From: a virus
IMG/VR virus record: IMGVR_UViG_3300010885_037048
Span: 1-31,790 of that record
Length of the DNA: 31,790 nucleotides
Direction: 5' to 3' (one strand)
In this document: positions 3,571 to 23,533 of the stretch, one piece after another
Layout: each line of letters opens with the position of its first letter
Numbering within the stretch: the first letter of the stretch is position 1
Notes under the pieces: model-generated
The model's input: the letters and a program-made list of their open reading frames with translations, nothing else
Database searches by the model: none
Told to the model about the DNA's origin: nothing
Made by a program: the position numbers and the translations under genes

Positions 3571-3598
3571 ATATTAAAAGATTTCCTTTAAAACTCAA
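3571..3598 (-). promoter_or_regulatory. Sigma70-like promoter of folE2
   Basis: On the minus strand TTGAGT (complement of 3593-3598) and TAATAT (complement of 3571-3576) are 16 nt apart. The -10 box ends 6 nt before the folE2 ATG at 3564. A start site at normal distance would fall on or next to the ATG, giving a leaderless mRNA. The same arrangement precedes queD and queE. Confidence 0.55.
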
Positions 3599-3614
3599 GG
3601 TTTTCCTTTAAATA
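3587..3614 (+). promoter_or_regulatory. Sigma70-like promoter of the HtrL-like gene
   Basis: TTTAAA (3587-3592) and TAAATA (3609-3614) are 16 nt apart, and the latter ends 6 nt before the ATG at 3621. It overlaps the divergent folE2 promoter. The spacer holds two copies of TTTCCTTTAAA (3582-3592 and 3602-3612) exactly 20 nt apart, and a 16-nt segment from 3590 that matches 14 of 16 positions with one at 7302 before queE. Binding of a common regulator is possible but unproven. Confidence 0.45.
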
Positions 3615-3620
3615 ATTTAT

Positions 3621-4568
3621 ATGGCAAATACAGTTTTGGTAACTTGTCTTTATAATGTAAAATATACCGAGTTAATTGGTGGTAGAGGGTATCCAATTAA
3701 TACATATTTTCCATCATTACAAAGCATTTTTGCGATAAAATTACCGGTAATTTTATATACATCAGAAAAAGATGTTGAAATATTATCTAAGTTTTTACAA
3801 GAATCTAACTATGATAATTATGAAATAAGAACACACGATTTAACTACCTATAGACATTATGCTAAGATTTTAGCAGCAAAAGAAACTCATGTTAATCCAG
3901 CATATAGGTATTATCATAGATGTGAAGTTCTATGTCATACAAAACTTTACTTTCTTGAACAAGCATATACCAATAAATGGGGTTGTAAAAAAGTAGTATG
4001 GATTGATGCAGGAATAACAGAAAATAGTAAAGTTCCAATAAAATATGGTGGTAGAGAATTAGGTGAAGGTAATATTTTAAAGAAGTATGAATTTTCTTTA
4101 TATCCAAATAATCCTGAAAGCTTGTTTAAACCTGAATTAGGAACTAAGCTCGATGAATATGTTGAAAAACATAGATGGTTCTTTGTAACCCTTAATGCAC
4201 CTTTTGATGGTTATAACACACCTTGGTTGAATATACTTAATAAACAAGCTAAAGAACTTTGTAATGTTAGCGATATTACATGTGCTAAATGGGTAGTAGG
4301 TACATTATGGGGTGGTTATAAAGAACATTTTGATGAAATTTACAGTATATACAATAAAATGGTAGATAATACTATAGATGAACAGTTATTTCCTAAAACT
4401 GAAGAGATGTATTTAGGTATTATTAATTATATACTTAAAAAACATAGTTTATACTTTGATACATGGTATGGCGATGTTCCTGGAGAGACAGAATACATGG
4501 AAGAACTATGGAAACATAACCCCGAGTTTAAATCGTTTTATAAGATATTTCGCGATATTCTTGAATAA
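3621..4568 (+). CDS. HtrL/YibB-like protein, probable glycosyltransferase-related
   Basis: A 315-residue protein that I place near the HtrL/YibB family (PF09612), which sits in bacterial LPS-core loci and is thought to be glycosyltransferase-like. Support comes from an N-terminal strand VLVTCLYNV, an early helix region, and VVWIDAG at about 126-132, where this family has its W-I-D-x-D-type motif. The protein is aromatic-rich and lacks a signal peptide or membrane helix. It is transcribed divergently from folE2. The assignment is by motif and length only; a generic GT-A fold is the alternative. Confidence 0.6.
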   Translation: MANTVLVTCLYNVKYTELIGGRGYPINTYFPSLQSIFAIKLPVILYTSEKDVEILSKFLQESNYDNYEIRTHDLTTYRHYAKILAAKETHVNPAYRYYHRCEVLCHTKLYFLEQAYTNKWGCKKVVWIDAGITENSKVPIKYGGRELGEGNILKKYEFSLYPNNPESLFKPELGTKLDEYVEKHRWFFVTLNAPFDGYNTPWLNILNKQAKELCNVSDITCAKWVVGTLWGGYKEHFDEIYSIYNKMVDNTIDEQLFPKTEEMYLGIINYILKKHSLYFDTWYGDVPGETEYMEELWKHNPEFKSFYKIFRDILE

Positions 4569-4571
4569 ATA
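4564..4571 (+). promoter_or_regulatory. Late-type promoter box
   Basis: AATAAATA overlapping the stop codon of the upstream gene and 14 nt before the ATG at 4586. It resembles the T4 late box TATAAATA with one mismatch. Confidence 0.3.
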
Positions 4572-4585
4572 TAATTAAAACAATT

Positions 4586-5647
4586 ATGTCCAATGTTTTA
4601 AATATATTTCAAGAGTATTTTGATAGAAAAGGTGTAAAACGTATTAGATTTAAAGTGGACCCTACTTTAAAAACCGGTTTTGATATAGCTGAAACATATG
4701 AAGGGTATATTTTAAAAGAATCACATAGTTGTGATGCTGTATTATATATACCAATTGGTGATCAAATGGGTATGCATAACATGCAAGGTGTTATACCCGT
4801 ACCAGAAGATGATAGATTAGGTCCTATTAAAGCTAAAATTGTTGAAATTTTGAAAGGTAAACCTGGTCAAGAGGTATTACCACATATAATGAAAACTAAT
4901 TGCTTTGTAGATATTGAATCACTATTACGTGGTATCGGTATGGAGAGTGATGACATTATTGAATTGCTCAAACGTGTTATTACTAATGAAGCAAAATTTA
5001 ATTATGAAGGAATGGATTCAAAGGGTAAAGATGTAAGAGGTGTTGTTGATGCACCTGATCATGGGGTTGCATTTTCACAATTAAGAGCAGCTAATATTTT
5101 ACCCACTAAATTAACACCGATATCACCACCTACACCACCACCTTCCGGAACATCTGGAACATCTGGCACTTCAGGACCAATACCAACAAGAGGTGCTACT
5201 GTACCAGGACCAGTACCACCGAGTTTAAGTTCTTCAACCGCACCATTAGGAATACCAACAAGTGTACACACTGGTATGAATATAAAAGGTAGTTTAAAGA
5301 AAGTAGCAAAAGGTATAGGTGGTGCAATAAAAGGTGTAGCAAAAGCACCATTTAAAGCAGCAGAAAAAATATCAAAAGGTAAAAGTAGATTAGATGCAGC
5401 CACAAGATATCTTAAATCATTTGAACCAGGTTATCTTCAAAGAGATTCACCAAAATGGATTGCAAATCCTAATTTAAATGCACGGATGTTTACAGGTGAC
5501 ACTAATTTTATGGATTGGTATAATGACAAGTATGATATGAAAGGTAACAATAATGCTATTAGAACTATTTTACAAAATGCTTCTATCAATCAATTAAATT
5601 ACTGGGCTAGAAAATTCTATGAAAGTAGTGGTAAATATATCAGTTGA
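4586..5647 (+). CDS. Hypothetical three-part protein, possibly structural
   Basis: A 353-residue protein of unknown family. Residues 1-150 form a mixed alpha/beta domain. Residues 180-235 are a Pro/Thr/Ser/Gly linker with PPTPPPSGTSGTSGTSG. Residues 235-275 are a Lys/Gly/Ala-rich amphipathic stretch (KVAKGIGGAIKGVAKAPFKA) that could touch DNA or membrane. The last 75 residues form a separate Asn/Tyr/Trp-rich domain. The flexible linker, the basic amphipathic segment and the late-type box upstream suggest a virion or injected protein, but no homology supports this. It lies 17 nt after the HtrL-like gene. Confidence 0.7.
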   Translation: MSNVLNIFQEYFDRKGVKRIRFKVDPTLKTGFDIAETYEGYILKESHSCDAVLYIPIGDQMGMHNMQGVIPVPEDDRLGPIKAKIVEILKGKPGQEVLPHIMKTNCFVDIESLLRGIGMESDDIIELLKRVITNEAKFNYEGMDSKGKDVRGVVDAPDHGVAFSQLRAANILPTKLTPISPPTPPPSGTSGTSGTSGPIPTRGATVPGPVPPSLSSSTAPLGIPTSVHTGMNIKGSLKKVAKGIGGAIKGVAKAPFKAAEKISKGKSRLDAATRYLKSFEPGYLQRDSPKWIANPNLNARMFTGDTNFMDWYNDKYDMKGNNNAIRTILQNASINQLNYWARKFYESSGKYIS

Positions 5648-5671
5648 TTATATTATGTAACATGGTAATAT
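5644..5671 (+). promoter_or_regulatory. Sigma70-like promoter of queD, with inverted repeat
   Basis: TTGATT (5644-5649) and TAATAT (5666-5671) are 16 nt apart, and the -10 ends 6 nt before the queD ATG. The -35 overlaps the stop codon of the previous gene. An 8-bp inverted repeat, TTATATTA (5648-5655) and TAATATAA (5666-5673), covers the spacer and -10 box and could be an operator or simply AT-rich chance. Confidence 0.5.
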
Positions 5672-5677
5672 AATTGT

Positions 5678-6367
5678 ATGCATTATTTTAGTACAAAAAT
5701 TTTTGAATTAGGTTCATGTGCTTTCAGACAGCCTTATGCAAATTCTCATTGTAAGTTTTTGCATGGTTATAGACTCACTGCAAAGTTTGTTTTTGCTTGC
5801 TCTAATTTAGACCAAAACAATTGGGTTGTTGATTTTGGTGGTCTTAAAGATTTGAAGAATATTTTTGAGCAGCAATTTGATCATACGACTATTGTTTGGA
5901 GTAAAGATCCTCAGATTGAATTGTTTAAGACACTCAATGAACGCGGTGTCATTGATTTAAGAGTTATGGAGAGCGGTGTCGGTATTGAAAAGTTTGCTGA
6001 GTATTGTTTTAATACTGCTGATAAGTATATTAAAAATAGTACAAATAGTCGCTGTTGGTTAGAGAGTGTTGAAGTATGGGAACATGATAAGAATTCTGCT
6101 TTTGTTAAGAATGGTGTACCTGCATTAACTATTATTAATGAATCTTCAATGAGTGATATTAAAAATAGTGCACATCCGTTGAACAATATTAATGAAACTA
6201 CAACCAATCAAATTGATATACCCGTAGAAAAGCCTGTTGAAGAAGCTCCTAAGACACGTAGATATGAACCAATTCCTGCACCGGTAGGTAACGTAGTTGA
6301 CAAGCAGAACAATCTCAGTTTTAAAGCCGCATTGGATAATCTTAGCTGGGGTAATCCACGTAAGTAA
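5678..6367 (+). CDS. queD: QueD-like 6-carboxytetrahydropterin synthase homologue
   Basis: A 229-residue QueD/PTPS-fold protein. QueD turns dihydroneopterin triphosphate into 6-carboxytetrahydropterin, the second step towards 7-deazaguanines. Residues 9-36 align with the metal-binding start of the family, including the active-site Cys (C25), and VDFGGLK (51-57), FDHT (67-70) and EVWE (132-135) are conserved marks. Two of the three expected zinc ligands appear changed: the first His is F16 and the HGH motif is HGY (29-31). A Pro-rich tail of about 75 residues follows the core, which is usually about 120-150 residues. Its place between folE2 and queE supports the pathway; activity is uncertain. 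Confidence 0.82.
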   Translation: MHYFSTKIFELGSCAFRQPYANSHCKFLHGYRLTAKFVFACSNLDQNNWVVDFGGLKDLKNIFEQQFDHTTIVWSKDPQIELFKTLNERGVIDLRVMESGVGIEKFAEYCFNTADKYIKNSTNSRCWLESVEVWEHDKNSAFVKNGVPALTIINESSMSDIKNSAHPLNNINETTTNQIDIPVEKPVEEAPKTRRYEPIPAPVGNVVDKQNNLSFKAALDNLSWGNPRK

Positions 6368-6555
6368 TGTATAAAGGTGTTCAAATTGAAAAAGACCCAT
6401 CAATTAACAAGTTAGTTGGTGATGTTTTTACTCAATTAAACAAAATAGGAAACCCTGAAGGTAAAAAAGATAATCCTTCAGGGTTTGGTGCTTTATCTGT
6501 AGAAGATGCTATTAAAGAATTATTAGAATTGCAAAAGAATAAACCTACTTCTTAA
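6367..6555 (+). CDS. Hypothetical small protein after queD
   Basis: A 62-residue protein whose ATG shares one base with the queD stop (TAATG), so translation is probably coupled. It has a Lys/Gly/Pro-rich middle and a C-terminal helix (VEDAIKELLELQKN). I do not recognise it. Its end overlaps the convergent phoH gene by 11 nt. Confidence 0.6.
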   Translation: MYKGVQIEKDPSINKLVGDVFTQLNKIGNPEGKKDNPSGFGALSVEDAIKELLELQKNKPTS

Positions 6556-7276
6556 TATTTTCTATAACACTTATAATATACTTTAACAATTGACTTCTTG
6601 TAATTTCATTATTTGTAAATTTAAAGGATAAAATACCCTCATTATTACTTTCAGTGGTATTAAAGACATCATAAATTCGTTTAAACCCTGATCTACCATT
6701 AATATCACTTTGCATTGTATCACCAATTAAAAATAACTTACTATTATTACCGAATCTAGTGAGAATAGTAATTAGTTCGTTAAGTTCTAGATTTTGTGCT
6801 TCATCTACAATAACTACAACATCTTTAAATGTTGTACCTCTTAAGAAATTAACAGGTGTAAACTTAATAATTTCACTATTAATTAAATTATTCGTTTCAG
6901 CCATTCCTATAAGTTCATCACATTTTTCCACCATTGGTAAACTCCATGGCTTGAACTTACTTTCTTCATCACCTGGTAAAAATCCTAATTTTTTATTAGC
7001 ACTTTCAACAACACTTCTTATATAAACTATTTCATTTATTTGTTTTTGTTTAAGAAGCATCAAAGAAACGTATGCAGACAAATATGTTTTACTTGAACCT
7101 GCAGGTCCATCAACCATCATTATTTTTGAATTTTCATGCAAACTACTTAAAACAAACTCTTTATGCGGCTCACTTAATTTATATTGTTGATTAATCCTAA
7201 AATTTAATTCAAGATTTGTGTCAATAATTTTTTGTTTTTGTTTTTTACCCTTGTTTTTTGTTAATGTGTTTGACAT
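6545..7276 (-). CDS. phoH: PhoH-like P-loop ATPase
   Basis: A 243-residue PhoH family protein, a P-loop ATPase related to the ATPase domain of superfamily I helicases and very common in marine phages. It shows Walker A GPAGSSKT (57-64) and Walker B VVIVDEAQN (154-162, DEAQ box), plus RSVVESANKKLGFLPG (87-102), typical of PhoH. The first 25 residues are a Lys-rich extension. An ATG at 7282 is also in frame, but it lies only 1 nt from the predicted -10 box, so I prefer 7276. The biological role of phage PhoH is unsettled. It is divergent from queE and convergent with the small gene after queD. Confidence 0.92.
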   Translation of the reverse strand: MSNTLTKNKGKKQKQKIIDTNLELNFRINQQYKLSEPHKEFVLSSLHENSKIMMVDGPAGSSKTYLSAYVSLMLLKQKQINEIVYIRSVVESANKKLGFLPGDEESKFKPWSLPMVEKCDELIGMAETNNLINSEIIKFTPVNFLRGTTFKDVVVIVDEAQNLELNELITILTRFGNNSKLFLIGDTMQSDINGRSGFKRIYDVFNTTESNNEGILSFKFTNNEITRSQLLKYIISVIENIKK

Positions 7277-7283
7277 CCACATA

Positions 7284-7311
7284 TATTTAATTTTTAACTT
7301 GAAAACTCCAA
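7284..7311 (-). promoter_or_regulatory. Sigma70-like promoter of phoH
   Basis: On the minus strand TTGGAG (complement of 7306-7311) and TAAATA (complement of 7284-7289) are 16 nt apart. The -10 ends 7 nt before the ATG at 7276. It overlaps the divergent queE promoter. Confidence 0.4.
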
Positions 7312-7327
7312 GTTTTCATTTTAATAT
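7299..7327 (+). promoter_or_regulatory. Sigma70-like promoter of queE with palindrome
   Basis: TTGAAA (7299-7304) and TAATAT (7322-7327) are 17 nt apart, close to the sigma70 consensus, with 6 nt from the -10 to the ATG at 7334. GAAAACT-CCA-AGTTTTC (7301-7317) is a perfect 7-bp palindrome with a 3-nt centre lying over the spacer, shared by the divergent phoH promoter. It could be an operator that controls both genes. Confidence 0.6.
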
Positions 7328-7333
7328 ATATGC

Positions 7334-8107
7334 ATGAGTGAAATTACTTACGACGAAAATGTCGATACTTTGTTTATTTCTGATGATAAAGTTTTTTACA
7401 CCCTTGAAGGTGAAGGTAGGTATGTAGGTATACCATCAGTATTTATGAGACTTGCAATGTGCAATCTCACTTGTATTGGTTTTAAGTCACCAGATTCACC
7501 TTTCGGTTGTGATTCTTATAGTTCATGGTCGGTAAAAAATAAATACACCTTTAAAGAACTCTATACTGAGTTTTTTGAAAAGACTGGTTACGGTATTAAG
7601 ATTGCCACCGGGAATGCAATATTAAAGGTTACAGGTGGTGAACCATTAATTCAACAAAACCAACTTGTTAAGTTTTTTAAATATTTGAAAGACAAGGAAG
7701 TTATTACTTGGAATAGTAACATTGATTTTGAAACTAATGCAACTATTACACCTTGTAAAGAACTTCTTAATTCACCAGGTATATCTTTCACTACATCACC
7801 TAAATTAGCTTCTAATGGTGATCCTGAAAATAAACGGTATATACCTGAAACACTTAAAGTGCATGTTATACAAGGTTCAGATTTTAAATTTGTTGTTCAA
7901 AATGAAAATGATTTAAAAGAGATTATTGAAAAATATGTAGATATGTTTGATATAACTAAAAATAATGTTTGGTTAATGCCTTGTTGTGGTTCACGTCAGG
8001 AACTGTTTGAACGATCTGCTCAAGTTGCTGAATGGTGTAAACAATATGGGTTTAATTTTAGCCCAAGACTGCAATTGCTTATTTGGGATAAAGCATTAAA
8101 AGTTTGA
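7334..8107 (+). CDS. queE: 7-carboxy-7-deazaguanine synthase (QueE), radical SAM
   Basis: A 257-residue radical SAM enzyme that converts 6-carboxytetrahydropterin into 7-carboxy-7-deazaguanine (CDG). Signs are the early FYTLEGEGRYVG (21-32), the cluster cysteines C43, C47 and C59, TGGEP (100-104), FETNAT and the end motif SPRLQLLIWD. The cysteines form Cx3Cx11C instead of the radical SAM Cx3Cx2C; expanded motifs are known in QueE. The core length is ordinary. The following DUF1796 gene starts inside its stop codon, so the two are co-transcribed. Together with FolE2 and QueD it completes the route from GTP to CDG. Confidence 0.92.
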   Translation: MSEITYDENVDTLFISDDKVFYTLEGEGRYVGIPSVFMRLAMCNLTCIGFKSPDSPFGCDSYSSWSVKNKYTFKELYTEFFEKTGYGIKIATGNAILKVTGGEPLIQQNQLVKFFKYLKDKEVITWNSNIDFETNATITPCKELLNSPGISFTTSPKLASNGDPENKRYIPETLKVHVIQGSDFKFVVQNENDLKEIIEKYVDMFDITKNNVWLMPCCGSRQELFERSAQVAEWCKQYGFNFSPRLQLLIWDKALKV

Positions 8108-8889
8108 TGAAATATTGGCTAAAAAATAATAGTTTTTTAGATACTCAATATGATTACATGGTGAGTATTGGTCACCGTTGTTGTGTAGGGCAAGGATTAC
8201 ATTACATGCGTAAGTCATCCTTTCCTTTTGATTGGCAAATAACTGATATAGATGGTTTAGTACCATTATTTAAAAATGAGCTAAAAGATATATACCCTAA
8301 CGGTCCTGGTGTTACCTGGGTGCATCAAATACATTACCCACCGGAATTTGAAGGAGGACCTGAAGGTAAAGTAGATGTAGAAAAAACTCTTGAAACATAC
8401 AACCGTAGAGCTCAACGGTTAGTTAAACTTCTTAAAGATAATGATAGAAAACTGTTATTTATAAGAAGTAAATACACCTGGTATTGGTATGAAAATAATT
8501 ATTATTTGCAGAAAGATATGCATTCTGTAAATTATGATTTACATCATCTTATAGAATTATCTAAAATATTTAAAAATCAGTATAAAAATGATAAATTTCA
8601 TATTTTATATGTTTATCAGGACACAAGACACTGGGAAAAGTTAAATTTTGTAGATGAAGTATGTTCTTTTGATGATTTTAGTTTACCAATAGATACTGAA
8701 AGTGTTAATTTAGCAGAAAATAAGCTAGTTTATATAGAACAAGACGGTTTTAAACAGCATAATATTACACCGGTTGTAGTATATCCCGGTAAATATAGAT
8801 TAGAAGGTAATAGATATTTAACTGAAATCTTTAAGGATTTAAAATTATCTGATACACAAGATTTTACTTTACCATATGGGTTTGCATAA
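8107..8889 (+). CDS. DUF1796 family (putative papain-like cysteine peptidase)
   Basis: A 260-residue protein. YMVSIGHRCCVGQGLHYMR followed by FPFDWQITDIDGL matches the DUF1796 N-terminal signature as I remember it (S-x-G-x-x-C ... PFDW). The family is annotated as putative papain-like cysteine peptidase, mainly from fold prediction, and its members often sit among glycosyltransferase genes, as here. The Cys pair C28/C29 would hold the nucleophile. The ATG at 8107 overlaps the queE stop (TGATG). True activity is unknown. Confidence 0.75.
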   Translation: MKYWLKNNSFLDTQYDYMVSIGHRCCVGQGLHYMRKSSFPFDWQITDIDGLVPLFKNELKDIYPNGPGVTWVHQIHYPPEFEGGPEGKVDVEKTLETYNRRAQRLVKLLKDNDRKLLFIRSKYTWYWYENNYYLQKDMHSVNYDLHHLIELSKIFKNQYKNDKFHILYVYQDTRHWEKLNFVDEVCSFDDFSLPIDTESVNLAENKLVYIEQDGFKQHNITPVVVYPGKYRLEGNRYLTEIFKDLKLSDTQDFTLPYGFA

Positions 8890-8892
8890 ATA
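8885..8892 (+). promoter_or_regulatory. Late-type promoter box
   Basis: CATAAATA overlapping the stop codon of the DUF1796 gene and ending 5 nt before the ATG at 8898. T4 late boxes lie at about -13 to -6, so transcription would start at the ATG. Confidence 0.45.
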
Positions 8893-8897
8893 TTTAC

Positions 8898-9506
8898 ATG
8901 ACCTTTGAAGGTGTATTTAGAAATTTAATATCTGAAAAGAAGACGAATTTAGTTGCTAATTTACTTCAACGGGGTGATAGTGTTAAGAATATTAATCCTG
9001 ATTGTCAGCATTGTGGCACTGAGGGTAAGGTAGTTAAAACAATAACACATAAAGGTAAAGGTGGTATATCAGGTAAAACAGTTGTTTACAAAATAGAAAA
9101 AGACCCATTACACAAAGGTAAGTATAATGGTAAGAGTATAGAGAAAACAGAAATACAATTAAAAAAAGAACAAGTAGAAGCTAATTTAAAACACCCATCT
9201 ATGAAACATTTCGATCCTAAAGAGTTAGAAAAGGGTATAAAGATCGAAATGGAGCATACTAAAGATAGAAAAACTGCTGAAATTATTGCTAAACAGCATT
9301 TAAGTGAAAAACCTGATTACTATAAACTTCTCAACAAATATGTAGAGAAGACAATACACGATCCAGTAAGACCTGGTATATTGAAGAGGGCAGCTGGGGG
9401 TGGTAAATTAAGTTGTTCGAAAGCTAGAGGTGTTAAATCTAGACAAAAGAATAAAGGTAATAACACAGCTAAAGCAGCACATCGGTACATAAATTACCAT
9501 TGTTAA
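8898..9506 (+). CDS. Basic virion-type protein with capsid-targeting-like leader
   Basis: A 202-residue Lys-rich protein. The leader MTFEGVFRNLISEKK has I-S-E at 11-13, a T4-type prohead protease site, followed by a basic segment. A short C-x-x-C (DCQHCG) lies near residue 35. The C-terminal 45 residues (GILKRAAGGGKLSCSKARG, then KNKGNNTAKAAHRYINYHC) form a conserved small-protein module that I recall from cyanophage genomes, without known function. A central region rich in KxxHPSMKHFDPKELEKG has a DUF5661-like look (H-P-x-M...ExGxxVExEHT), often found in phage virion-associated proteins. A late-type box directly upstream supports late expression. Confidence 0.75.
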   Translation: MTFEGVFRNLISEKKTNLVANLLQRGDSVKNINPDCQHCGTEGKVVKTITHKGKGGISGKTVVYKIEKDPLHKGKYNGKSIEKTEIQLKKEQVEANLKHPSMKHFDPKELEKGIKIEMEHTKDRKTAEIIAKQHLSEKPDYYKLLNKYVEKTIHDPVRPGILKRAAGGGKLSCSKARGVKSRQKNKGNNTAKAAHRYINYHC

Positions 9507-9541
9507 TAGATATTTTCATCTAATAGAATACATAATATTTA

Positions 9542-10540
9542 ATGAAAGTATTCTTTATAGATACTGATCGTACATTTTCTGCTTTAGAAATGACAAAAAG
9601 CGAAAATGGTAGATCAATAAATAGCCCGTATAGTTTTTCACCACGTATTAAGTCTAAAAACGTTGAGTGGGTAAAATTGAGTTATGATACCTATAATTGT
9701 CAATTACATTTCAATGTAATTCCTGATGATATACAAACAGTAATTTGGTCTGATAGGGCTGCTTTATTTTATTTCTCTAATGAAACTACTATTTGGAGTA
9801 GATGGGAACACGATAATAATCCTAAATTGTACGATTTTACTAAACAATTTCCTAATAAACGTAATATCAATATGATTATGGAACCACCTGATGGTTGTGG
9901 TGAAACATATAATTTTCATAAAGGTATACCTGATTACTCTAAAAGATTTGATTTAGTATTGTCACATAATTTAGATTTAGTTAATTCAGTAAGTAAAGCT
10001 AAATGGTACCCATGGGGTACTACATTACTTGACAGTGAAGAACAATTTGTAATATATCCAAAAAGTAAATTAGTTAGTGCTAATTATTCCAATAAAAAAT
10101 GGTGGACAGGTCATAAATTTAGATTTGAAGTATTTGAAGAACTTAAAGTTAATAAGTATTTTAAACATGTAGATATAATAGGACCTTTTAGTTACGCAAA
10201 TTATTTGCCTAAACTTGACACCCTTAAGGATTATTATTTTTCAATACAAATAGAAAATCAAAAAGTAGATGACTTCTTTAGTGATAAAATTATTGATAGT
10301 TTTCTTACCGGTACTATTCCTATATACTGGGGTACAAATAACATTGGTAAATACTTTAACTTAGACGGTATAATTACATTTGATACGAAAGAAGAACTAT
10401 GCCAAATATTAAAGGAAATTACTCCTAGTTATTATAAATCTAAAGAAAAAGCAATATTAGATAATTTCCATGAGGCAAAGAAATATATATCTCCAGATGA
10501 TTGGTTAATAAAAACTTACGGGAGTGATGTACTTATATGA
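9542..10540 (+). CDS. GT10-like fucosyltransferase
   Basis: A 332-residue protein. Residues 231-264 (YYFSIQIENQKVDDFFSDK, then IIDSFLTGTIPIYWG) match the C-terminal donor-binding region of family GT10 alpha-1,3/4-fucosyltransferases, whose pattern is F-x-x-x-x-E-N-x-x-x-x-x-Y-x-T-E-K ... G-x-x-P-x-x-x-G. The expected donor is GDP-fucose or a similar nucleotide sugar. No membrane anchor is seen, so it should be cytosolic. It starts a four-gene overlapping cluster (ATGA junctions) with two paralogous glycosyltransferases. Donor and acceptor are not determinable from sequence. Confidence 0.75.
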   Translation: MKVFFIDTDRTFSALEMTKSENGRSINSPYSFSPRIKSKNVEWVKLSYDTYNCQLHFNVIPDDIQTVIWSDRAALFYFSNETTIWSRWEHDNNPKLYDFTKQFPNKRNINMIMEPPDGCGETYNFHKGIPDYSKRFDLVLSHNLDLVNSVSKAKWYPWGTTLLDSEEQFVIYPKSKLVSANYSNKKWWTGHKFRFEVFEELKVNKYFKHVDIIGPFSYANYLPKLDTLKDYYFSIQIENQKVDDFFSDKIIDSFLTGTIPIYWGTNNIGKYFNLDGIITFDTKEELCQILKEITPSYYKSKEKAILDNFHEAKKYISPDDWLIKTYGSDVLI

Positions 10541-11334: not shown

Positions 11335-11632
11335 AGAGTTTATTACTGGAGCACAAAGAGATACTGGGGATAATAAATTAAAAATGAGTTTATTACCTCA
11401 CGATGAACTTAATAGGGTACTTAAACGATATTTAGATGGTGCTGAAAAATATGGGGCTAATAACTGGAAAAAAGGTATGCCTTTATCTGTTTATTATGAT
11501 TCTGCACAAAGACATATGTTTAAATGGTGGAATGGTGACAATGATGAAGACCATGCAGCAGCAGCAGTGTGGAATATATTAGGTGCCATGTGGACTGAAA
11601 AACATCTTAAAGAAACTATGGATGATAGATGA
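11327..11632 (+). CDS. DUF5664-type dATP/dGTP diphosphohydrolase-like protein
   Basis: A 101-residue protein that begins at an ATG overlapping the upstream stop (ATGAATAG). ALxxG-like start TGDNKLKMSLLPHDEL, then AEKYGANNWKKG, SAQRHMFKWWNG and DEDHAAAAVWNIL follow the order of DUF5664 (PF18909, dATP/dGTP diphosphohydrolase N-terminal domain). Such all-alpha enzymes remove pyrophosphate from dNTPs and may shape the nucleotide pool; phage MazZ has a comparable job. The acidic loop between the helices is shorter than in the members I remember. It sits between two paralogous glycosyltransferases. Confidence 0.72.
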   Translation: MNREFITGAQRDTGDNKLKMSLLPHDELNRVLKRYLDGAEKYGANNWKKGMPLSVYYDSAQRHMFKWWNGDNDEDHAAAAVWNILGAMWTEKHLKETMDDR

Positions 11633-15769: not shown

Positions 15770-15775
15770 TTATAT

Positions 15776-15783
15776 TATTTATT
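15776..15783 (-). promoter_or_regulatory. Late-type promoter box
   Basis: On the minus strand AATAAATA ends 6 nt before the ATG of the fibre-like gene at 15769, one mismatch from the T4 late box and at the spacing seen before other structural-type genes here. Confidence 0.4.
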
Positions 15784-15810
15784 TTCTAAAACATAATTAT
15801 AAATTATATT

Positions 15811-16584
15811 ATGAGTAAAATAGGGTTAGGTATAATTACATGTAATAGACCAGATTTCTTTAAAAAATGTTATGAGAGTGTTCCAAAAGATACAGTAGAT
15901 GAGTTAGTAGTTATTAATGATGGTAATAATTTAGATTTTAATTATACAAGCCATTACATTAAAAATGAAAAGAATATAGGTGTTGGTAAATCTAAAAACA
16001 AAGCTCTTAAGTACCTTTTAGATAAAAATTGTGATTATTTATTTCTTATAGAGGATGATATAACAATTACAGATCCTAATGTATTTAATGAATATATCAA
16101 ATACATAGAAAAAACAGGTATACAGCATTTAATGTTTGGTTATCACGGACCAGCTAATAAAAAGGACAATAATCCAATACCAAGATTAGTAGTTGACTAT
16201 GGTGATAATGTTAATTTAGCATTAAATTTTCACTGTGTTGGTGCATTTTGTGTTTACACTAAAAAATTACTTAATGATATAGGTTTATTTGATGAAACGT
16301 TCCTAAATGCGTGGGAACACGTAGAACATTCATATCAAGCTGTTAAAAATGGTTATTTACCAGCTTATTGGTGGTGGCCTGATATACATAATTCATATGA
16401 ATATCTCGGTGAACAGGCATGTTCTGAAGTTAATTCATCTATTAGACCCCGCGAAGATTGGAAATCTAATATAAATAACGGTGCAAGATATTTCTATAAC
16501 AAACATAAATACACACCTTGGCAAGTACCTAATGAAAGTGAAGAAAGTGTGATTAAAGCATTAAGAAAGTTGAAAACTAAGTAA
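15811..16584 (+). CDS. GT2-type glycosyltransferase
   Basis: A 257-residue GT-A protein. The start IGLGIITCNRPDFFKKCYES is the standard GT2 opening, VVINDGNN follows, and YLFLIEDDITI supplies the D-x-D-like acidic motif near residue 80. A late acidic/aromatic region (FLNAWEHVEHSYQ) is where GT2 enzymes have their E-D catalytic base motif. No membrane helix. It opens the long glycan island on the plus strand and is divergent from the fibre-like gene by 41 nt. TATAAATT (15798-15805) lies 5 nt before its ATG. Sugar and acceptor unknown. Confidence 0.8.
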   Translation: MSKIGLGIITCNRPDFFKKCYESVPKDTVDELVVINDGNNLDFNYTSHYIKNEKNIGVGKSKNKALKYLLDKNCDYLFLIEDDITITDPNVFNEYIKYIEKTGIQHLMFGYHGPANKKDNNPIPRLVVDYGDNVNLALNFHCVGAFCVYTKKLLNDIGLFDETFLNAWEHVEHSYQAVKNGYLPAYWWWPDIHNSYEYLGEQACSEVNSSIRPREDWKSNINNGARYFYNKHKYTPWQVPNESEESVIKALRKLKTK

Positions 16585-16598
16585 TTTACATTTAATAA
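16570..16598 (+). promoter_or_regulatory. Sigma70-like promoter inside the end of a GT2 gene
   Basis: TTGAAA (16570-16575) and TAATAA (16593-16598) are 17 nt apart, with 6 nt to the ATG at 16605. TTGAAAACT is identical to the start of the queE promoter. The -35 lies in the last codons of the upstream gene. Confidence 0.5.
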
Positions 16599-16604
16599 AA
16601 ACAG

Positions 16605-17345
16605 ATGAAAATTGCTCTTCTTCTTCCCACACGTGAGAGAATGAATTTAAAGCTCACGTTTTTACTTACCGCATTAGCTAGATGTAAGGACCCCAACAAT
16701 TTTACAGTATATTTCGGTATGGATGCAGATGATCCAACGTTGGATCGCTGTAAGAAACTCGCTAAAGTTATCACAAACCTTAAGATTGTAGAGTTTGAAC
16801 CACAAGGGCCTAAGACTAACATTCATGCTATCTGGAATAAACTTGCAGAAGTAAGTACTGAGGAAATTATTTCCATGGTGGGTGATGATATGATGTTTAG
16901 TAGTGATAACTGGGATGAAAAGATACTTGAAGAGTTTACTGCTGAAAAGTGTCCTAATAAGTTTAAGTTAGTTTGCGGTAACGATGGTTATAGAAAAGAT
17001 CAATTCCCATCATGGTTATTTATTCACAGGTATTATTGCGAGGTGACAGGTAAGTTTATGCGTGATGAATTTGTTAGAAACTGGGTTGATCAGTGGTTAG
17101 ATCAGATTTATCTTGCATTTAATAGTAAGGTATTTCGTCCTGATATCACTATTACCCATAACCATTGGGTATTCAATGCAATGGAAAAAGATAGAGTTGC
17201 TAAAGGTTTAGAACAACGTGAAGGACCTAATAAGGAACTTTCTGATAAGCTATGGCCTAAGCTTGGACCTGAGAGAGTTAAAGAAATTAACAAGTGGGCT
17301 GAAATTCTTAATTTAACTCCTGATTTCACTAAGGTAGATTGTTAA
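16605..17345 (+). CDS. GT-A glycosyltransferase-like protein
   Basis: A 246-residue protein with a GT2-like opening (KIALLLPTRERMNLKL) and FGMDADDPTL, then ISMVGDDMMF near residue 90 as the probable D-x-D-type metal site. AWNKL-like contacts are replaced by HAIWNKLAE, a pattern I recall from viral and capsular glycosyltransferases of this class. Codon choice here (more GTT, CTT and ACT) looks less extreme than in the surrounding very TTA/ATA-rich glycosyltransferase genes, which may reflect a different history. The next gene starts 1 nt after its stop. Confidence 0.68.
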   Translation: MKIALLLPTRERMNLKLTFLLTALARCKDPNNFTVYFGMDADDPTLDRCKKLAKVITNLKIVEFEPQGPKTNIHAIWNKLAEVSTEEIISMVGDDMMFSSDNWDEKILEEFTAEKCPNKFKLVCGNDGYRKDQFPSWLFIHRYYCEVTGKFMRDEFVRNWVDQWLDQIYLAFNSKVFRPDITITHNHWVFNAMEKDRVAKGLEQREGPNKELSDKLWPKLGPERVKEINKWAEILNLTPDFTKVDC

Positions 17346-17346
17346 T

Positions 17347-18030
17347 ATGAAAGTTATAAGTTTTTCTCTTTGGGGTGATAACCCTATGTATATTCAAGGT
17401 GCGTTTGAAAATATCAAACTTGCTAATGAAATATACCCAGATTGGAAGGTAAGAATATATACAGATAAATACACTGATGTAGAATTGCTTAAAAAGTTAA
17501 GTAAAGCAGGTGCTCAAATTCGTGTGGTAGAACATAACTATCCACCTTGGTATAATTTGTTTATTAGGTTCTTTGTTAATGATGACCCTGAGGTAACAAA
17601 GTATATTATTAGAGATACTGACTCAAGATTATCATTAAGAGAAAAAATGTGCGTTGCAGAATGGGAGAAATCAAGTAAACCATTCCATTGTATGCGTGAT
17701 CACCCATGGCATTACGGTGTCAAGTTCCTAGGAGGTATGTGGGGGTGTAAAATCGGTGTGATACCTAATATGGTACAGTTAATTGAACAATATGTTAAGA
17801 TGAGACCTCAATTCATTAAAGGTATTGATCAATTTTTCTTGCAAGATATGGTGTGGAAATACGTTAAAGATTTACGTATTGAACACGATAGCATAAATGA
17901 CCCACGTCATAGGAACGAAAACGTGCTTAAATTCCCAGTAAAGCGTAATGATTATGAATTTGTTGGTTGCATCTTTAATGAACACAATCAGCGTAATGAT
18001 GATTACAAAGGTCTTATAGATATAAAATAA
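17347..18030 (+). CDS. Glycosyltransferase-like protein (GT-A)
   Basis: A 227-residue protein. VISFSLWGDNPMYIQGA at the start and YIIRDTDSRLS near residue 90 as the D-x-D site indicate a nucleotide-sugar transferase of the GT-A type. FHCMRDHPWHYGVKFLGGMWGCK follows in parts (positions 117-140), a His/Trp-rich segment typical of a recurring phage and bacterial family often annotated as glycosyltransferase. Its last base is the first base of the next gene's ATG (TAATG). Confidence 0.68.
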   Translation: MKVISFSLWGDNPMYIQGAFENIKLANEIYPDWKVRIYTDKYTDVELLKKLSKAGAQIRVVEHNYPPWYNLFIRFFVNDDPEVTKYIIRDTDSRLSLREKMCVAEWEKSSKPFHCMRDHPWHYGVKFLGGMWGCKIGVIPNMVQLIEQYVKMRPQFIKGIDQFFLQDMVWKYVKDLRIEHDSINDPRHRNENVLKFPVKRNDYEFVGCIFNEHNQRNDDYKGLIDIK

Positions 18031-18881
18031 TGAAAGTCTTAATTATACAAGAAGCAGGTAGAAATGAAGGTAATAAACAGTTCCGTGAGTGTTTAAGCTT
18101 ACAAAGAGCCTTTAAACATCTAGGTCATGATGCTGTAGTTTGGGGTAAAGGACATGATAATTTTATCTATGATATAGATTATAATAGTTATGATATCATC
18201 TTCAACCTTGAAAACTATGGAGACAGTTGGTTACCTGATATATCTTGTATACATAAACCATATAAGATCTTATGGTCTATAGATGCTCATTGTAGAGGTG
18301 TTGAACCATATGATAAGATTTTTAATGATGGAAAATATAATTTACTTTTACACTCTACTAAAGATTATGCCACTGGTTGTAATAGAGCTTGGTTTCCAAA
18401 TGCTTATGATGACACACTTATTAGGAAACTTGATATTGCAAAGCAATATTTTTTGGGTTTTTGTGGTAATTATGTTAATCGTAAGCAATTAATTGATCAT
18501 CTTACAGCCTATAAAGGGTTAAAACAAGAAATATTCGTTATTGGTGATGAAATGGTTAAAGCAATTAACTCTTATCACATACATTTTAATAAGAATATAG
18601 CTAATGATATAAACTATAGAAGCTTTGAAACATTAGGATGTGGTACATTACTGTTAACTAACTACAATCCACAATACGAAGAGTTAGGATTTATAGATTT
18701 CGATAACTGTGTAATGTATAAAAATTTAGATGAATTGAATTTACGAATTGATTATTTAAAAAATAACCCTAAGTTAATTGAAATAATTACACAAAATGGT
18801 TTTAATTTTGTTAAGAAACATACTTACAATAAAAGAGTAGAAAAACTTTTAGAATATATAAAGCATGAAAAAAATATTTAG
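18030..18881 (+). CDS. CgeB-like GT-B glycosyltransferase
   Basis: A 283-residue protein with a GT-B appearance: an N-terminal Rossmann half (MKVLIIQEAG, then DIIFNLENYG and KILWSIDAHC) and a C-terminal half with SYHIHFNKN, then YRSFETLGCGTLLLTN and FVKKHTYNKRVEKLL, the signature of CgeB-like or group 1 glycosyltransferases (PF13524). The E in RSFETLGCG corresponds to the conserved nucleotide-sugar contact. No signal peptide. It overlaps the next gene by 17 nt. Confidence 0.78.
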   Translation: MKVLIIQEAGRNEGNKQFRECLSLQRAFKHLGHDAVVWGKGHDNFIYDIDYNSYDIIFNLENYGDSWLPDISCIHKPYKILWSIDAHCRGVEPYDKIFNDGKYNLLLHSTKDYATGCNRAWFPNAYDDTLIRKLDIAKQYFLGFCGNYVNRKQLIDHLTAYKGLKQEIFVIGDEMVKAINSYHIHFNKNIANDINYRSFETLGCGTLLLTNYNPQYEELGFIDFDNCVMYKNLDELNLRIDYLKNNPKLIEIITQNGFNFVKKHTYNKRVEKLLEYIKHEKNI

Positions 18882-19419
18882 ATTTGATGATGTTTGTGTA
18901 AACTGCAATATGGATACTGTCAATTTAATGACAGATTATATCCTTCAAAATGTACCAGACAGCCAAGTTCTTTGGGGTGTTTCACCATTAGTGCATAATA
19001 TGTCTAATGAGACAGGTAGTAAGGTAGAAAGAGTTTACCCTAAAATTTTTAATGCGTTATCAGATATAAAGGTATTTTTTAAACCTAATATTGCTGGGGT
19101 ACCTAAATTACGTGATGATGTGGTTACAGCTGGTCATGGGTTAATTCATATTGATCATAGACTTTTAACACCTGAACAGCAAGAGATGTCAATTCTTATT
19201 TCTTGTTCTCTTGCAAATGCTAAAGTATTTATTCCACCATTTAACAAGTGGAATGTTCATACTGAGCTTATTTGTATTGAGAATGATATTACTCTTATTA
19301 AATTTGAAAATGGTTGGAAGTGTATGGAATATAACAAGTACGACCCCGAGCAAACACGTTGGTATATACATGCACGAGAAATGACTTACGAAAACTTTGT
19401 TAACTGGTTTAATGCATGA
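18865..19419 (+). CDS. Polysaccharide deacetylase-like protein
   Basis: A 184-residue protein with the NodB-type order of motifs: FRFDDV (5-10) with the catalytic/metal Asp pair D8-D9, then GHGLIHIDH (90-98) with H91 and H95 as zinc ligands, and IPPFNKWN (123-130) as the third motif. Such enzymes remove N-acetyl groups from sugars. It is short for the family and has no secretion signal, so it should act in the cytoplasm, possibly on a nucleotide-sugar or lipid-linked glycan. It is embedded between a GT-B enzyme and a methyltransferase. Confidence 0.72.
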   Translation: MKKIFRFDDVCVNCNMDTVNLMTDYILQNVPDSQVLWGVSPLVHNMSNETGSKVERVYPKIFNALSDIKVFFKPNIAGVPKLRDDVVTAGHGLIHIDHRLLTPEQQEMSILISCSLANAKVFIPPFNKWNVHTELICIENDITLIKFENGWKCMEYNKYDPEQTRWYIHAREMTYENFVNWFNA

Positions 19420-19501
19420 ACTTGCTGAAGAGTTAGCTGTAAGATTAAATAAACAAGTAAAGTTTTATAGTGATAAAGATAACTTTGCATACATCTGGTA
19501 A
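19412..19501 (+). CDS. Possible 29-residue peptide gene
   Basis: An ATG at 19412 inside the end of the deacetylase gene opens a 29-codon frame to TAA 19499-19501. It fills the only gap (84 nt) between two genes in this tightly packed island and is charged and Leu/Val-rich (HELAEELAVRLNKQ). It could also be non-coding or a remnant. No family recognised. Confidence 0.3.
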   Translation: MHELAEELAVRLNKQVKFYSDKDNFAYIW

Positions 19502-19503
19502 TT

Positions 19504-20097
19504 ATGAATACAACAAAAATGTTTATACAATCCAACCCAAACGTGGAATTAACTTTTCAACAAATAGTTGAATTTACACTTAATAAACAAGAAGGTGGTA
19601 TTATTGAAATAGGTGTAGGACATGGGGATACCAGTGTTGAATTACTTAAACTATGTGAAAAACATAATAGAGAGTATATAGCTATTGACCCATTTGAATC
19701 AAATTGGAATAATATACCTGAAAGTTACGGTAAACCATATCCATATGAAGTGTGGAGTAATAATATAAAACCATTTAGAAATAAGAATAGAATTACACAT
19801 TATCAGGTACCATCACAAGATAAATCACTCTATAAGATATTAAAACAGCATACACCTATTGCTTTTGCATTCGTTGATGGGTTGCAATTTAAAGAAGCAG
19901 TGTTAAGTGATATAAAGCTATTAACTACTTTAAAATGTTCTGTTATTTGTATTGATGATTATAATCGTAATACCACAGTAAGTCAGGTGCCAGAGGCAGT
20001 TAATGAATTTTTACAAAATAATCCAGAATATAAAGTAGTAGCTGAAAATAATAATGTTACACGTTGTAAAGCATACATAGTAGATAACACATGGTAA
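19504..20097 (+). CDS. Class I SAM-dependent methyltransferase
   Basis: A 197-residue Rossmann-fold methyltransferase. IIEIGVGHGDTS at about residues 36-47 is motif I (E-x-G-x-G-x-G), YIAIDPFE near 58-65 is motif II, and FAFVDGLQFKEAVLSDIKLL near 120 resembles the Methyltransf_24 type used on sugars and small molecules. It sits in the glycan island, so O-methylation of a sugar is the likeliest job; the target is inferred. It starts 2 nt after the putative small peptide and overlaps WbqC by 7 nt. Confidence 0.8.
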   Translation: MNTTKMFIQSNPNVELTFQQIVEFTLNKQEGGIIEIGVGHGDTSVELLKLCEKHNREYIAIDPFESNWNNIPESYGKPYPYEVWSNNIKPFRNKNRITHYQVPSQDKSLYKILKQHTPIAFAFVDGLQFKEAVLSDIKLLTTLKCSVICIDDYNRNTTVSQVPEAVNEFLQNNPEYKVVAENNNVTRCKAYIVDNTW

Positions 20098-20669
20098 TTT
20101 CAATACACCAACCTAATTTTGTCCCATGGTATCCTTTTTTTCAAAAGATTAAAAGTAGTGATATATTTGTAATTTTAACGCACTGTCAATTTGAAAAGAA
20201 TAATTTTCAAAACCGGTTTAACTTTAATGATAAGTGGCAAACATTGAGTGTTAACAAAGGGTTAGAACCTATAGTTAATAAAGTATATGTTAACCCTCAC
20301 GATGATTGGGAAAAAATAAAAAATAATTTACCTGAATATAAACATATTTTATCTCAATTTGATAATTATATTAGTAGTAGCTTAGTTTGTACAAATATAG
20401 CAATTATCCGTAAAATAGTTGAATTACTTAATATTAACACTTGTATAGTAGTAGATGAACCAACTAATTTTAAAGGTACAGATAGATTAGTAGAAATTTG
20501 TAAACAATATAAAGCTACAAAGTATTTGGCTGGCAGTGGTGGTAGTAGATTATATTTAGAAGTAGAAAAATTCACTAATACAGATATAGAGGTTGAATTT
20601 CAACAACCAGAACATTTAATAAAAGTACCGATATTAAAGGCACTTAATAATGAACAGAATATTACTTAG
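20091..20669 (+). CDS. wbqC: WbqC-like family protein
   Basis: A 192-residue protein. ISIHQPNFVPWYPFFQKIK at the start is the hallmark of the WbqC family (PF08889), with FVILTHCQFEKNNFQNRF and KYLAGSGGSRLYLE further on, both family-typical. WbqC genes sit in O-antigen and other surface polysaccharide loci, and the proteins are thought to act in making or transferring amino-sugar units, though the reaction is not settled. Length is slightly shorter than usual (about 220-240). It overlaps the next gene by 20 nt. Confidence 0.85.
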   Translation: MVISIHQPNFVPWYPFFQKIKSSDIFVILTHCQFEKNNFQNRFNFNDKWQTLSVNKGLEPIVNKVYVNPHDDWEKIKNNLPEYKHILSQFDNYISSSLVCTNIAIIRKIVELLNINTCIVVDEPTNFKGTDRLVEICKQYKATKYLAGSGGSRLYLEVEKFTNTDIEVEFQQPEHLIKVPILKALNNEQNIT

Positions 20670-21441
20670 CACTGACGATAACGAAACATACCTTAATTTT
20701 TTTCCTATTGTAGCTAAAGCATGGAATAGACTCTTCAATGCACCGGTTTCATTAGCATTTGTTACTAACAAACCAGATAACCACCCATTAATAATAAAGA
20801 TGAGACAATATGGAGATGTATTTACATTTCCTCCAGTGCAAGGTTTACCTACAGGTAACCAAGCAAAAATGGCCAGATTTTATATTGCTAAACATTATTT
20901 AGACAGAATATGCATGGTAAATGATATTGATACTGCACCATTATCAATATCATATTTTCACCGGGTGTTATCAACTCGTGAACCTAATACCGTATTGGCT
21001 GTAGGTAAGGAGGTTTATAAAAAAACTCCAGATGAAGGTAAATTTCCAATGGGTGAAATTACAGCTGAAGGTGCATTATTTACTAAAATAGTTAACCCTT
21101 TAGATCTTTGTTTTAAAGATTATATTTTATCATTTAAAAATATACATGTTTATGATGGTAAAGAATCTATTAACACTAATGTTTTTTCAGATGAATCATT
21201 AATGAGGGTATTATTAAATAGATCTAAAGTACCAGTGACACATACACCTAGAGGTGTAGATATAGAACATTTTTGGATAGATAGATCATGGTGGAAAATA
21301 GATATGGATAAACTTAAGAAAAACAAATATGTATTGGTTAACTTTTTGAGACCATTAAACATGAATTTTGTTCAAATCAAACCAATTATAGATCATATTT
21401 ACGGGGATGAAAAGTATGTGGATATATTTACCGAATTGTAA
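20650..21441 (+). CDS. Nucleotide-diphospho-sugar transferase-like protein
   Basis: A 263-residue protein with a GT-A layout: N-terminal strand RILLSTDDNETYLNFFP, KMARFYIAKHYLDRICMVNDIDTAPL with a D-x-D (D-I-D) near residue 98, and a late EHFWIDRSWW segment with His/Asp/Trp that may contact the acceptor. No membrane helix. It follows WbqC with a 20-nt overlap. I cannot name the CAZy family. Confidence 0.65.
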   Translation: MNRILLSTDDNETYLNFFPIVAKAWNRLFNAPVSLAFVTNKPDNHPLIIKMRQYGDVFTFPPVQGLPTGNQAKMARFYIAKHYLDRICMVNDIDTAPLSISYFHRVLSTREPNTVLAVGKEVYKKTPDEGKFPMGEITAEGALFTKIVNPLDLCFKDYILSFKNIHVYDGKESINTNVFSDESLMRVLLNRSKVPVTHTPRGVDIEHFWIDRSWWKIDMDKLKKNKYVLVNFLRPLNMNFVQIKPIIDHIYGDEKYVDIFTEL

Positions 21442-21453
21442 TATATATTATGT

Positions 21454-22191
21454 ATGGAAATAGTAGGTATTGCTGGTTACGGTGAAGTTGGGGCTTCATT
21501 GCATGAAATATATAAAAAATGCAATTGTTCTATATATATATTAGATACCTTTAAAAAAATTAATACATTTCCTGATAAATTAAATATTCTTAATATATGT
21601 ATACCTTATAACGATACATTTATACAAAATGTTACCGGATACATAAATCTATACAAACCACAATTAACTATTATACATAGTACTGTACCACCAGGTACCA
21701 CAAATACAATAATTAAACAATTTAATGGTGATATTTCAATTGTTTATTCACCTATTAGAGGTGTACATCCAAATTTAGAGCAAGGTATTTTAACATTTAC
21801 CAAATTTGTTGGTGGAGAAAATAAAGAAACAGTTCAATTAGCTGTAAAACATTTAAATAAACTCAATATAGAATGTGAAGTGGTAGAAAGTAGTACTGCT
21901 GCAGAATTAGCTAAAATTATATGTACCACTTACTATGGTTTATGTATTGCATTTCATAATGATATATCTAAATTATGTGAACAATACAATGTTAAATTTG
22001 ATGATGTGGCCACCAAATGGAATTTGAGTTATAATGAAGGTTATAAACAATTAAACATGCCTCATGTAATTAGACCGGTATTATATCCACCTAAAGGTAA
22101 AATTGGTGGTCATTGTGTAATAAACAATACAAAATTATTAAAATCGGTATATAATAGTAAAGCATTAGATTATATTTTAGAACTACAATGA
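21454..22191 (+). CDS. Short nucleotide-sugar dehydrogenase (UDP-Glc/ManNAc DH-like)
   Basis: A 245-residue protein resembling UDP-glucose or UDP-ManNAc dehydrogenases, which oxidise a sugar C6 alcohol to the uronic acid with NAD. G-x-G-x-x-G (8-13, GYGEVG) binds NAD, HSTVPPGTT (75-83) and SPIRGVHP (99-106) are family marks, E151-L-A-K lies where the central helix starts, and GGHC (218-221) carries the catalytic Cys. The protein ends about 24 residues after that Cys, so the C-terminal UDP-binding domain of the usual 400+ residue enzymes is missing. The next gene overlaps by 4 nt. Confidence 0.78.
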   Translation: MEIVGIAGYGEVGASLHEIYKKCNCSIYILDTFKKINTFPDKLNILNICIPYNDTFIQNVTGYINLYKPQLTIIHSTVPPGTTNTIIKQFNGDISIVYSPIRGVHPNLEQGILTFTKFVGGENKETVQLAVKHLNKLNIECEVVESSTAAELAKIICTTYYGLCIAFHNDISKLCEQYNVKFDDVATKWNLSYNEGYKQLNMPHVIRPVLYPPKGKIGGHCVINNTKLLKSVYNSKALDYILELQ

Positions 22192-22889
22192 ATATAACTT
22201 ATGTGGTAAATAGTAATTATGTATTTTATAAAAAAGCCACTGAAGTCATGTTTAGTAGTTTAGATAAAACCAATTACAATTGGAAAGATAAATTTGTAAT
22301 TATAGTTGGTCAATCACCAAATAATGAAACAAAAATTATAGATGGAGTAAAACATGTATTTGTAACATATGGTGGTATAGATTTTACTGCAGCATTTTAC
22401 ATAGCTGAACATCAAGAAGAGTTTGAAGAGTATATATTTTACACTCATGATACCGCATATATGGGTCCTAATTTCTTTAACTTAGTTGCTAATGACTTTA
22501 AAGGTATATACTATAAAAGATTACGTGCTAGATATGGAATGAATATAGGTATATTTAGGAAAGATTTATTTGTAAGATATTATAACATATTAGAACAGCT
22601 AAAATTCCATGATTTATCTAATTATACGATACAATACTACAAATATTTAGGTATTATGTATGAAGATATTATTTGTAATTTAGTAGATGATGATATTGAA
22701 TTACAAAATAACCAATCAATAAGTAACTGTTTTCAATTTAATATGGGTGAAAATTTTATAGCTGAAAATGTAGATTTTTACAATACAAATACATTAAGAA
22801 ATATAATATATGTACCTGAATTAGATTACTACAAAATAAAGGCCAATATAGGTAAAAAACCACCTTTGGAGTGGGTAATAAAACTTTAA
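22188..22889 (+). CDS. Glycosyltransferase-like protein, last gene of the glycan island
   Basis: A 233-residue protein. The N-terminus ITYVVNSNYVFYKKATEVM and the YIFYTHDTAYMGPNFFN segment (about 85-101) fit a GT-A sugar transferase in which H-D-T replaces D-x-D; YGMNIGIFRKDLF follows, as in similar enzymes where this strand positions the acceptor. No membrane segment. It begins at the ATGA overlap with the dehydrogenase. The lack of a clear D-x-D means the call rests mainly on context. Confidence 0.55.
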   Translation: MNITYVVNSNYVFYKKATEVMFSSLDKTNYNWKDKFVIIVGQSPNNETKIIDGVKHVFVTYGGIDFTAAFYIAEHQEEFEEYIFYTHDTAYMGPNFFNLVANDFKGIYYKRLRARYGMNIGIFRKDLFVRYYNILEQLKFHDLSNYTIQYYKYLGIMYEDIICNLVDDDIELQNNQSISNCFQFNMGENFIAENVDFYNTNTLRNIIYVPELDYYKIKANIGKKPPLEWVIKL

Positions 22890-22896
22890 ATTTTAC

Positions 22897-22924
22897 TTGA
22901 ATAACTCAGGTAATAAGTTAAAAT
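22897..22924 (+). promoter_or_regulatory. Sigma70-like promoter of the DUF366 gene
   Basis: TTGAAT (22897-22902) and TAAAAT (22919-22924) are 16 nt apart, ending 8 nt before the ATG. AACTC lies 30 nt before the ATG, as in the queE promoter (30 nt) and the HtrL-like promoter (29 nt). Confidence 0.45.
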
Positions 22925-22932
22925 AATATTGT

Positions 22933-23532: not shown

Positions 23533-23533
23533 T

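Follow-up and report, generated by a model that had tools for sequence, protein, structure and literature searches.

The question raised by this locus is where transcription and translation of its genes begin. The window, by which we mean the whole stretch of 31,790 bases analyzed here, is a fragment from an IMG/VR virus record with about 31% GC, and many of its start codons are closely preceded by AT-rich, promoter-like boxes. Its proteins include FolE2, QueD-like and QueE-like proteins, PhoH, a DUF366 protein, a gp62-like clamp-loader subunit, a DNA helicase and a tail sheath stabilizer. A megablast of the window against 50,697 phage records gave no match, and FolE2 and DUF366 showed only weak matches when compared with cultured phages. 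Relatives were found via FolE2, which led to 80 related viral contigs. Among them are contigs of 170.9 and 154.6 kb in which a T4 portal was recognized (E about 1e-99) and which also encode homologues of gp17, 18, 19, 20, 21, 23, 25, 32, 43, 44, 46, 47, 55, primase and UvsW. Since the nearest cultured phages have only about 31–34% of portal or capsid residues in common with this lineage, it represents an uncultured T4-like lineage, and the window is a piece of an uncultured marine T4-like phage.

The occurrence of boxes by itself was uninformative. A generic sigma70 consensus scan over positions 1–20000 of the window returned 114 matches versus 118 in shuffles, which is no excess. Because unpositioned consensus matches equal those in shuffles, it is the position relative to the start codon that is decisive. 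Among 427 intergenic upstream regions of the relatives, 54 have a TATAAT ending precisely 6 nt upstream of the ATG and 59 a TTGA ending 30 nt upstream of it, while most other positions showed one or two occurrences of either motif. For TAAATA, the favored distances to the ATG were 5 nt (40 of these 427 regions), 6 nt (27) and 7 nt (24). The same positional peaks were seen in a second set of loci that was fetched independently via another protein. When one representative was counted per protein family (464 families), TAAATA 5–7 nt before the ATG was present in about 116 families versus 3.5 in dinucleotide shuffles, and TTGA-N(17-20)-TATAAT ending 5–8 nt before the ATG in about 25 versus 1.2; control positions were at background. 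The claim in a preliminary description of the window that boxes recur at a set distance from start codons survived this comparison with a composition-matched control.

A simple script supplied the gene starts, and those of orthologues were set by protein alignment. The choice of start codons was considered as a source of the peaks and ruled out, as the same gene caller produced no peaks adjoining the ATG in T4, Mosig or P-TIM68 and the orthologue starts were protein-aligned. Position matrices trained only on distant relatives and then run over the window recovered most of the window sites. Class A matrix sites (TTGA/TATAAT) were found 4–8 nt before 9 of the 43 window starts, with 0.6 expected at random, and class B matrix sites (TAAATA) before 7 of the 43, with 0.3 expected. 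About 60% of the genes in the long contigs have no recognized box. Some of these are operon-internal, and in contig G001 33 of the 78 genes with an upstream gap of at least 20 nt are also without a box.

The boxes fall into two classes, one sigma70-like and one T4-late-like, rather than the single early-gene promoter class that had been proposed. The class A consensus is TTGA followed, mostly after 18 nt, by TATAAT (equal to 16 nt between the hexamers) and then A/T, as judged from 78 sites in 30 families, with a distance d, the number of bases between box and ATG, of 5–8 nt. It has the features of a sigma70 promoter, namely a TTGA(CA)-like -35, a spacer of 16–18 nt and a TATAAT -10. Eight window genes had been credited with a -35/-10 pair, and five of them (folE2, queD, queE, 14130 and 22933) do have class A sites, with TTGA 17–19 nt upstream of the -10. 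The folE2 site lies on the minus strand at 3571–3598, with TTGA at 3595–3598 and TAATAT at 3571–3576, 6 nt before the ATG at 3564. Class A was found in 45 of 49 distinct orthologous upstream regions of folE2, and in 25 of these 45 the box is 9–12 nt from the ATG; leaders of 3–6 nt are therefore to be expected in some phages. On the plus strand, the queD site occupies 5644–5671 (TTGA 5644–5647, TAATAT 5666–5671, 6 nt before the ATG at 5678) and the queE site 7299–7327 (TTGA 7299–7302, TAATAT 7322–7327, 6 nt before the ATG at 7334). Class A is present in 54 of 55 orthologous queD upstreams, 43 of them at d=6, and in 36 of 52 queE orthologues.

The two remaining class A sites of the five are also on the plus strand. 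That of the kinase-like gene 14130 is at 14096–14122 (TTGA 14096–14099, TATAAA 14117–14122, d=7), and the orthologue in locus L003 has TTGA and TATAAT at the spacing seen in the window; among 36 orthologues of this gene, 16 have class B and 5 have class A. The DUF366 gene 22933 has its site at 22897–22924 (TTGA 22897–22900, TAAAAT 22919–22924, d=8), and 38 of 39 orthologues are within one mismatch of TTGA..TATAAT at d=5–8. The orthologous upstreams of queD, folE2, queE, DUF366 and phoH are only 35–42% identical, yet box and spacing are kept; in shuffles of these upstreams at most 5 had a box. In the long contigs, gp32, gp55, primase and DNA polymerase have class A or a TATAAT box. Class A is presumably read by the host RNA polymerase and serves replication, regulatory and deazaguanine genes.

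A promoter at gene 16605 did not hold up. The match on the plus strand at 16570–16596 is doubtful, with a TTGA (16570–16573) that lies within the upstream gene and a weak -10, TTTAAT (16591–16596), and 0 of 8 orthologues keep the site. Relatives have not kept the AACTC that had been taken as a shared signal, which in the divergent regions is partly a reflection of the CTTGA -35 of the neighboring gene on the other strand. Inverted repeats at 3564/3621 and 7282/7334, suggested as operators by the window sequence, were likewise not kept in relatives.

Class B consists of (A/T)(A/T)TAAATA (AATAAATA/TATAAATA) without a -35 and with little information further upstream. Two of the eight sites described earlier, those of gene 3621 and phoH, are real but belong here, with TAAATA and no -35. 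At gene 3621 TAAATA is at 3609–3614 on the plus strand, 6 nt before the ATG, and is kept in loci L001 and L004. The phoH box is on the minus strand at 7284–7289, which leaves 1 nt to the listed ATG (7282) and 7 nt to an in-frame ATG at 7276; class B is present in 40 of 44 phoH orthologues and class A once. The phoH start is probably this second in-frame ATG, two codons after the listed one, because the first ATG in L001 is directly followed by a stop codon and 7276 fits the box distance. Class B boxes also precede gene 8898 (8887–8892, plus strand, 5 nt before the ATG, in 3 of 3 orthologues), gene 12409 (TATAAATA, 12398–12403, plus strand, 5 nt before the ATG, kept in L003) and, on the minus strand, gene 14858–15769 (15776–15781, 6 nt before the ATG at 15769). 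The tail sheath stabilizer gene has one at 26974–26979 on the plus strand, 5 nt before a GTG at 26985. At five further plus-strand genes the box is at a greater distance from the ATG: 9 nt for genes 28130 (28115–28120), 29833 (29818–29823) and 1411 (1396–1401), 12 nt for gene 199 (181–186), and 14 nt for gene 4586 (4566–4571), where it overlaps the stop codon of gene 3621. The TAAATA motifs of genes 199 and 4586 are kept in L001.

Class B resembles the late promoters of T4, which depend on gp55, gp33 and gp45 (PMC2988020), in its TAAATA core at the -10 position, here inferred relative to the ATG, in the lack of a conserved -35 and in the AT-rich sequence just downstream. As in T4, the TATAAATA-like box stands on structural genes (gp18, 19, 20, 21, 25 and 13 in contigs G001 and G002), and a gp55-family sigma factor is encoded in the relatives of the window. 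The G001 homologue matches the PHROG late sigma factor with E=1e-25, and homologues are present in G002 and G012 as well; there is none in the window fragment itself. Searches of 8 contigs for gp33 and gp45 gave no Pfam match, although positive controls were also silent in those searches. The clamp-loader genes gp44 and gp62 are present. From the sequence match, we infer that class B is a gp55-type T4 late promoter. There are two differences. In T4 the ATG follows the TAAATA peak at about 27–28 nt, with a Shine-Dalgarno leader in between, whereas here the distance is 5–7 nt, and the box here begins with A/T positions instead of a strict TA.

The distances between box and ATG bear on where transcripts would start. 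A sigma70 -10 box occupies -12 to -7, so the modal distance of 6 for TATAAT puts +1 on the A of the ATG. Bacterial start sites favor a pyrimidine at -1 and a purine at +1. The T4 late box occupies -13 to -6 (PMC2988020), so the modal distance of 5 for TAAATA puts +1 on the same A. Both boxes would accordingly set +1 on the A of the ATG or 0–3 nt before it, as judged from box geometry. A pyrimidine directly precedes the ATG in 92% of class B sites at d=5, in 84% of class A sites at d=6 and in 100% of class A sites at d=5 (12 sites only), compared to 41% where genes have no box. With class B at 7 nt from the ATG, the enrichment is instead for T at -3 and A at -2, which indicates that the initiator follows the box. 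Shine-Dalgarno 4-mers were found in 6–7% of genes in G001 and G002 versus 4–7% in control windows, that is, at background, whereas the same gene caller found them in 50% of Mosig genes, 71% in a T4 stretch and about a quarter in P-TIM68. A published criterion for leaderless bacterial genes is a -10-like box some 12 bp upstream of the start codon (PMC3160421), and this arrangement, together with the absence of a Shine-Dalgarno motif, is what these phages have. Comparison of many phages lends strong support to the earlier suggestion that transcription begins at about the start codon.

Other explanations for the boxes were considered. They could be translation signals, either non-Shine-Dalgarno and Kozak-like or simply unstructured as in Bacteroidota, on transcripts that start further upstream. 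Such signals would suit genes without Shine-Dalgarno motifs, and A-rich upstream regions do promote initiation in Flavobacterium (PMC6847099). However, operon-internal genes need translation as well and have neither boxes nor an A-rich motif, the class A -35 is at a fixed 17–19 nt from the -10, the two boxes are split by gene function, and the initiator base shifts with the box and not with the ATG. The details also differ from those of Bacteroidota, for which a TANNTTTG -7 element and Kozak-like adenines at -12/-13, -6 and -3 have been described (PMC6847099): class A has TATAAT followed by A/T without TTTG, and genes without boxes lack the A-rich motif. We regard translation signals as an improbable explanation. 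It is equally improbable that the boxes are real but secondary promoters with the main transcripts coming from further upstream, or that the true starts are further inside the genes and the leaders normal. The starts used here are predicted, not measured, and the listed phoH start is probably wrong. On the other hand, starts agree among orthologues and adjoin conserved domains, the family matches of 14130 and DUF366 begin at residue 1–2, the peaks are sharp to one or two nucleotides, and there is no Shine-Dalgarno motif anywhere near the starts.

AT-rich sequence might also generate spurious boxes beside start codons by chance. That unpositioned matches in the window equal shuffles, and that strong matrix matches are present within genes too, would be expected from chance. 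At start-relative positions, however, the family-level counts are about 20- to 30-fold over dinucleotide shuffles, and Mosig, which is similarly AT-rich, has no such peak. Chance is refuted for the set as a whole, for which it is hardly conceivable, but may account for single sites such as 16605.

We propose instead that many transcription units of this phage start at the start codon and that sigma70-type and gp55-type promoters both give rise to leaderless mRNAs, an explanation that we hold to be highly probable. Class A (TTGA, 17–19 nt, TATAAT) would be used by the host RNA polymerase and class B by a phage sigma factor of the gp55 type. Translation of the first gene in each unit would start from a leaderless mRNA, with ribosomes probably binding to the 5′-terminal AUG. 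No ribosome-binding motif is detectable at the downstream genes, which abut or overlap, and these would likely be reached by translational coupling to the gene upstream. In this proposal the 5′ ends, the polymerase with its sigma factor, the timing and the translation mode are deduced from what the sequences contain: the boxes, their spacing and conservation, the split of the classes by gene function, the absence of Shine-Dalgarno motifs and the gp55 homologue. The many genes in the long contigs that have no recognized box, the phages with the box 9–12 nt from the ATG and the long leader of the major capsid gene speak against it, and so, less firmly, does the lack of gp33 and gp45 matches. Phage-encoded IF3 or S1, which might favor leaderless mRNA, were looked for in 17 related contigs and found in none; one of the 17 encodes a ribosomal protein S21 homologue (G016:C1:82041-82163; L340). 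There may be an even chance that the proposal extends further, such that the whole marine T4-like lineage gave up Shine-Dalgarno initiation, with leaderless transcripts from both promoter types, coupling downstream and a structured leader kept by the capsid gene. In that case the uncultured host must translate leaderless mRNA efficiently as a rule.

The major capsid gene gp23 is the exception. It has a leader of ~85 nt (L091:110-195, equal to G001 120110-120195), which two long contigs share almost unchanged and of which degenerate versions can be recognized by eye at about 40 or more further gp23 loci (L190–L269). Its layout is roughly GAGG-stem-CCTGAG..CCTGG-stem-CCTTGAGGTCGA..AAAGGAAA before the ATG. 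The stem covaries, with 36 two-sided changes versus 13 in column shuffles and 80% of cells paired versus 50% in column shuffles. An Rfam search with the capsid leader gave no match. The leader is thus a candidate for a new structured RNA, and this exception gives a hint of what a leaderless mRNA might be unable to provide.

Neither leaderless mRNA nor either promoter type is new in itself. Middle and late genes of the Thermus phage P23-45 are leaderless, in a host already rich in leaderless mRNA. The cI gene of lambda is treated as leaderless too (PMC9031893). The phages studied here would share with these two cases the start of mRNAs at the AUG, but the earlier cases are single genes or come from a leaderless-rich host, and neither is a T4-like phage with early-type and late-type promoters so placed. 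Leaderless (TA-led) genes of Actinobacteria, Deinococcus-Thermus and others likewise combine a -10-like box roughly 12 bp upstream of the start with the lack of a Shine-Dalgarno motif (PMC3160421); here, in contrast, the genes are those of a lytic T4-like phage, the promoters are of two classes including that of a phage sigma factor, and Shine-Dalgarno motifs are at background genome-wide. The marine T4-like cyanophages and pelagiphages (S-PM2, P-TIM68 and Mosig) share the T4-like core genes, and a late motif, NATAAATA, has been reported for cyanophages (PMC2984593). Mosig and P-TIM68 differ from the present lineage in the Shine-Dalgarno motifs on half and about a quarter of their genes, respectively, and in having no box peak next to the ATG. 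In the open-access literature searched, we found no report of leaderless T4-like phages or of the systematic combination of leaderless mRNA with both promoter types in a T4-like lineage.

T4, with its Shine-Dalgarno leaders, is the model for phage gene control. If the proposal is true, a large lytic phage can have its whole mode of initiation remodeled, and these phages offer a natural test of the efficiency of leaderless translation. The arrangement also provides practical rules for predicting start codons, promoters and the probable timing, early or late, from the sequences of these uncultured phages, and the promoter architecture narrows the plausible hosts. SAR11 seems an unlikely, though still conceivable, host of the lineage because Mosig, a T4-like phage of Pelagibacter, has Shine-Dalgarno motifs and no box peak. 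The FolE2 proteins of G001 (92597–93646) and G002 (85496–86545; see also loci L108–L110) are about 83% identical to marine Planctomycetaceae MAG proteins encoded on 47%-GC contigs. The window FolE2 is about 69% identical to Planctomycetaceae MAG FolE2 and up to 67% to that of Bacteroidota. These identities are a lead to gene transfer and possibly to the host.

Several other features of these genomes were observed. ARAGORN called a tmRNA in G001 (L093:4252-4661) with an unusually long tag (AEQEEADLLAEAEAIFNNPDAFLVQEEALLAA), which may be a false positive. The DUF366 gene (window 22933–23938) is directly upstream of the gp62 clamp-loader gene, and its relatives are found in about 70 viral contigs (L270–L339). 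Window positions 9542–12381 and 15811–22889 hold a long series of glycosyltransferase-like and nucleotide-sugar-like genes; gene 16605 matches a glycosyltransferase PHROG, and genes 10537 and 11629 appear paralogue-like by eye. Two long Pro/Thr-rich repeat proteins (TPTRT/TQTPT-type) are encoded at 28130–31164, where the opposite strand has long Val-rich open frames and the GC skew is strongly shifted.
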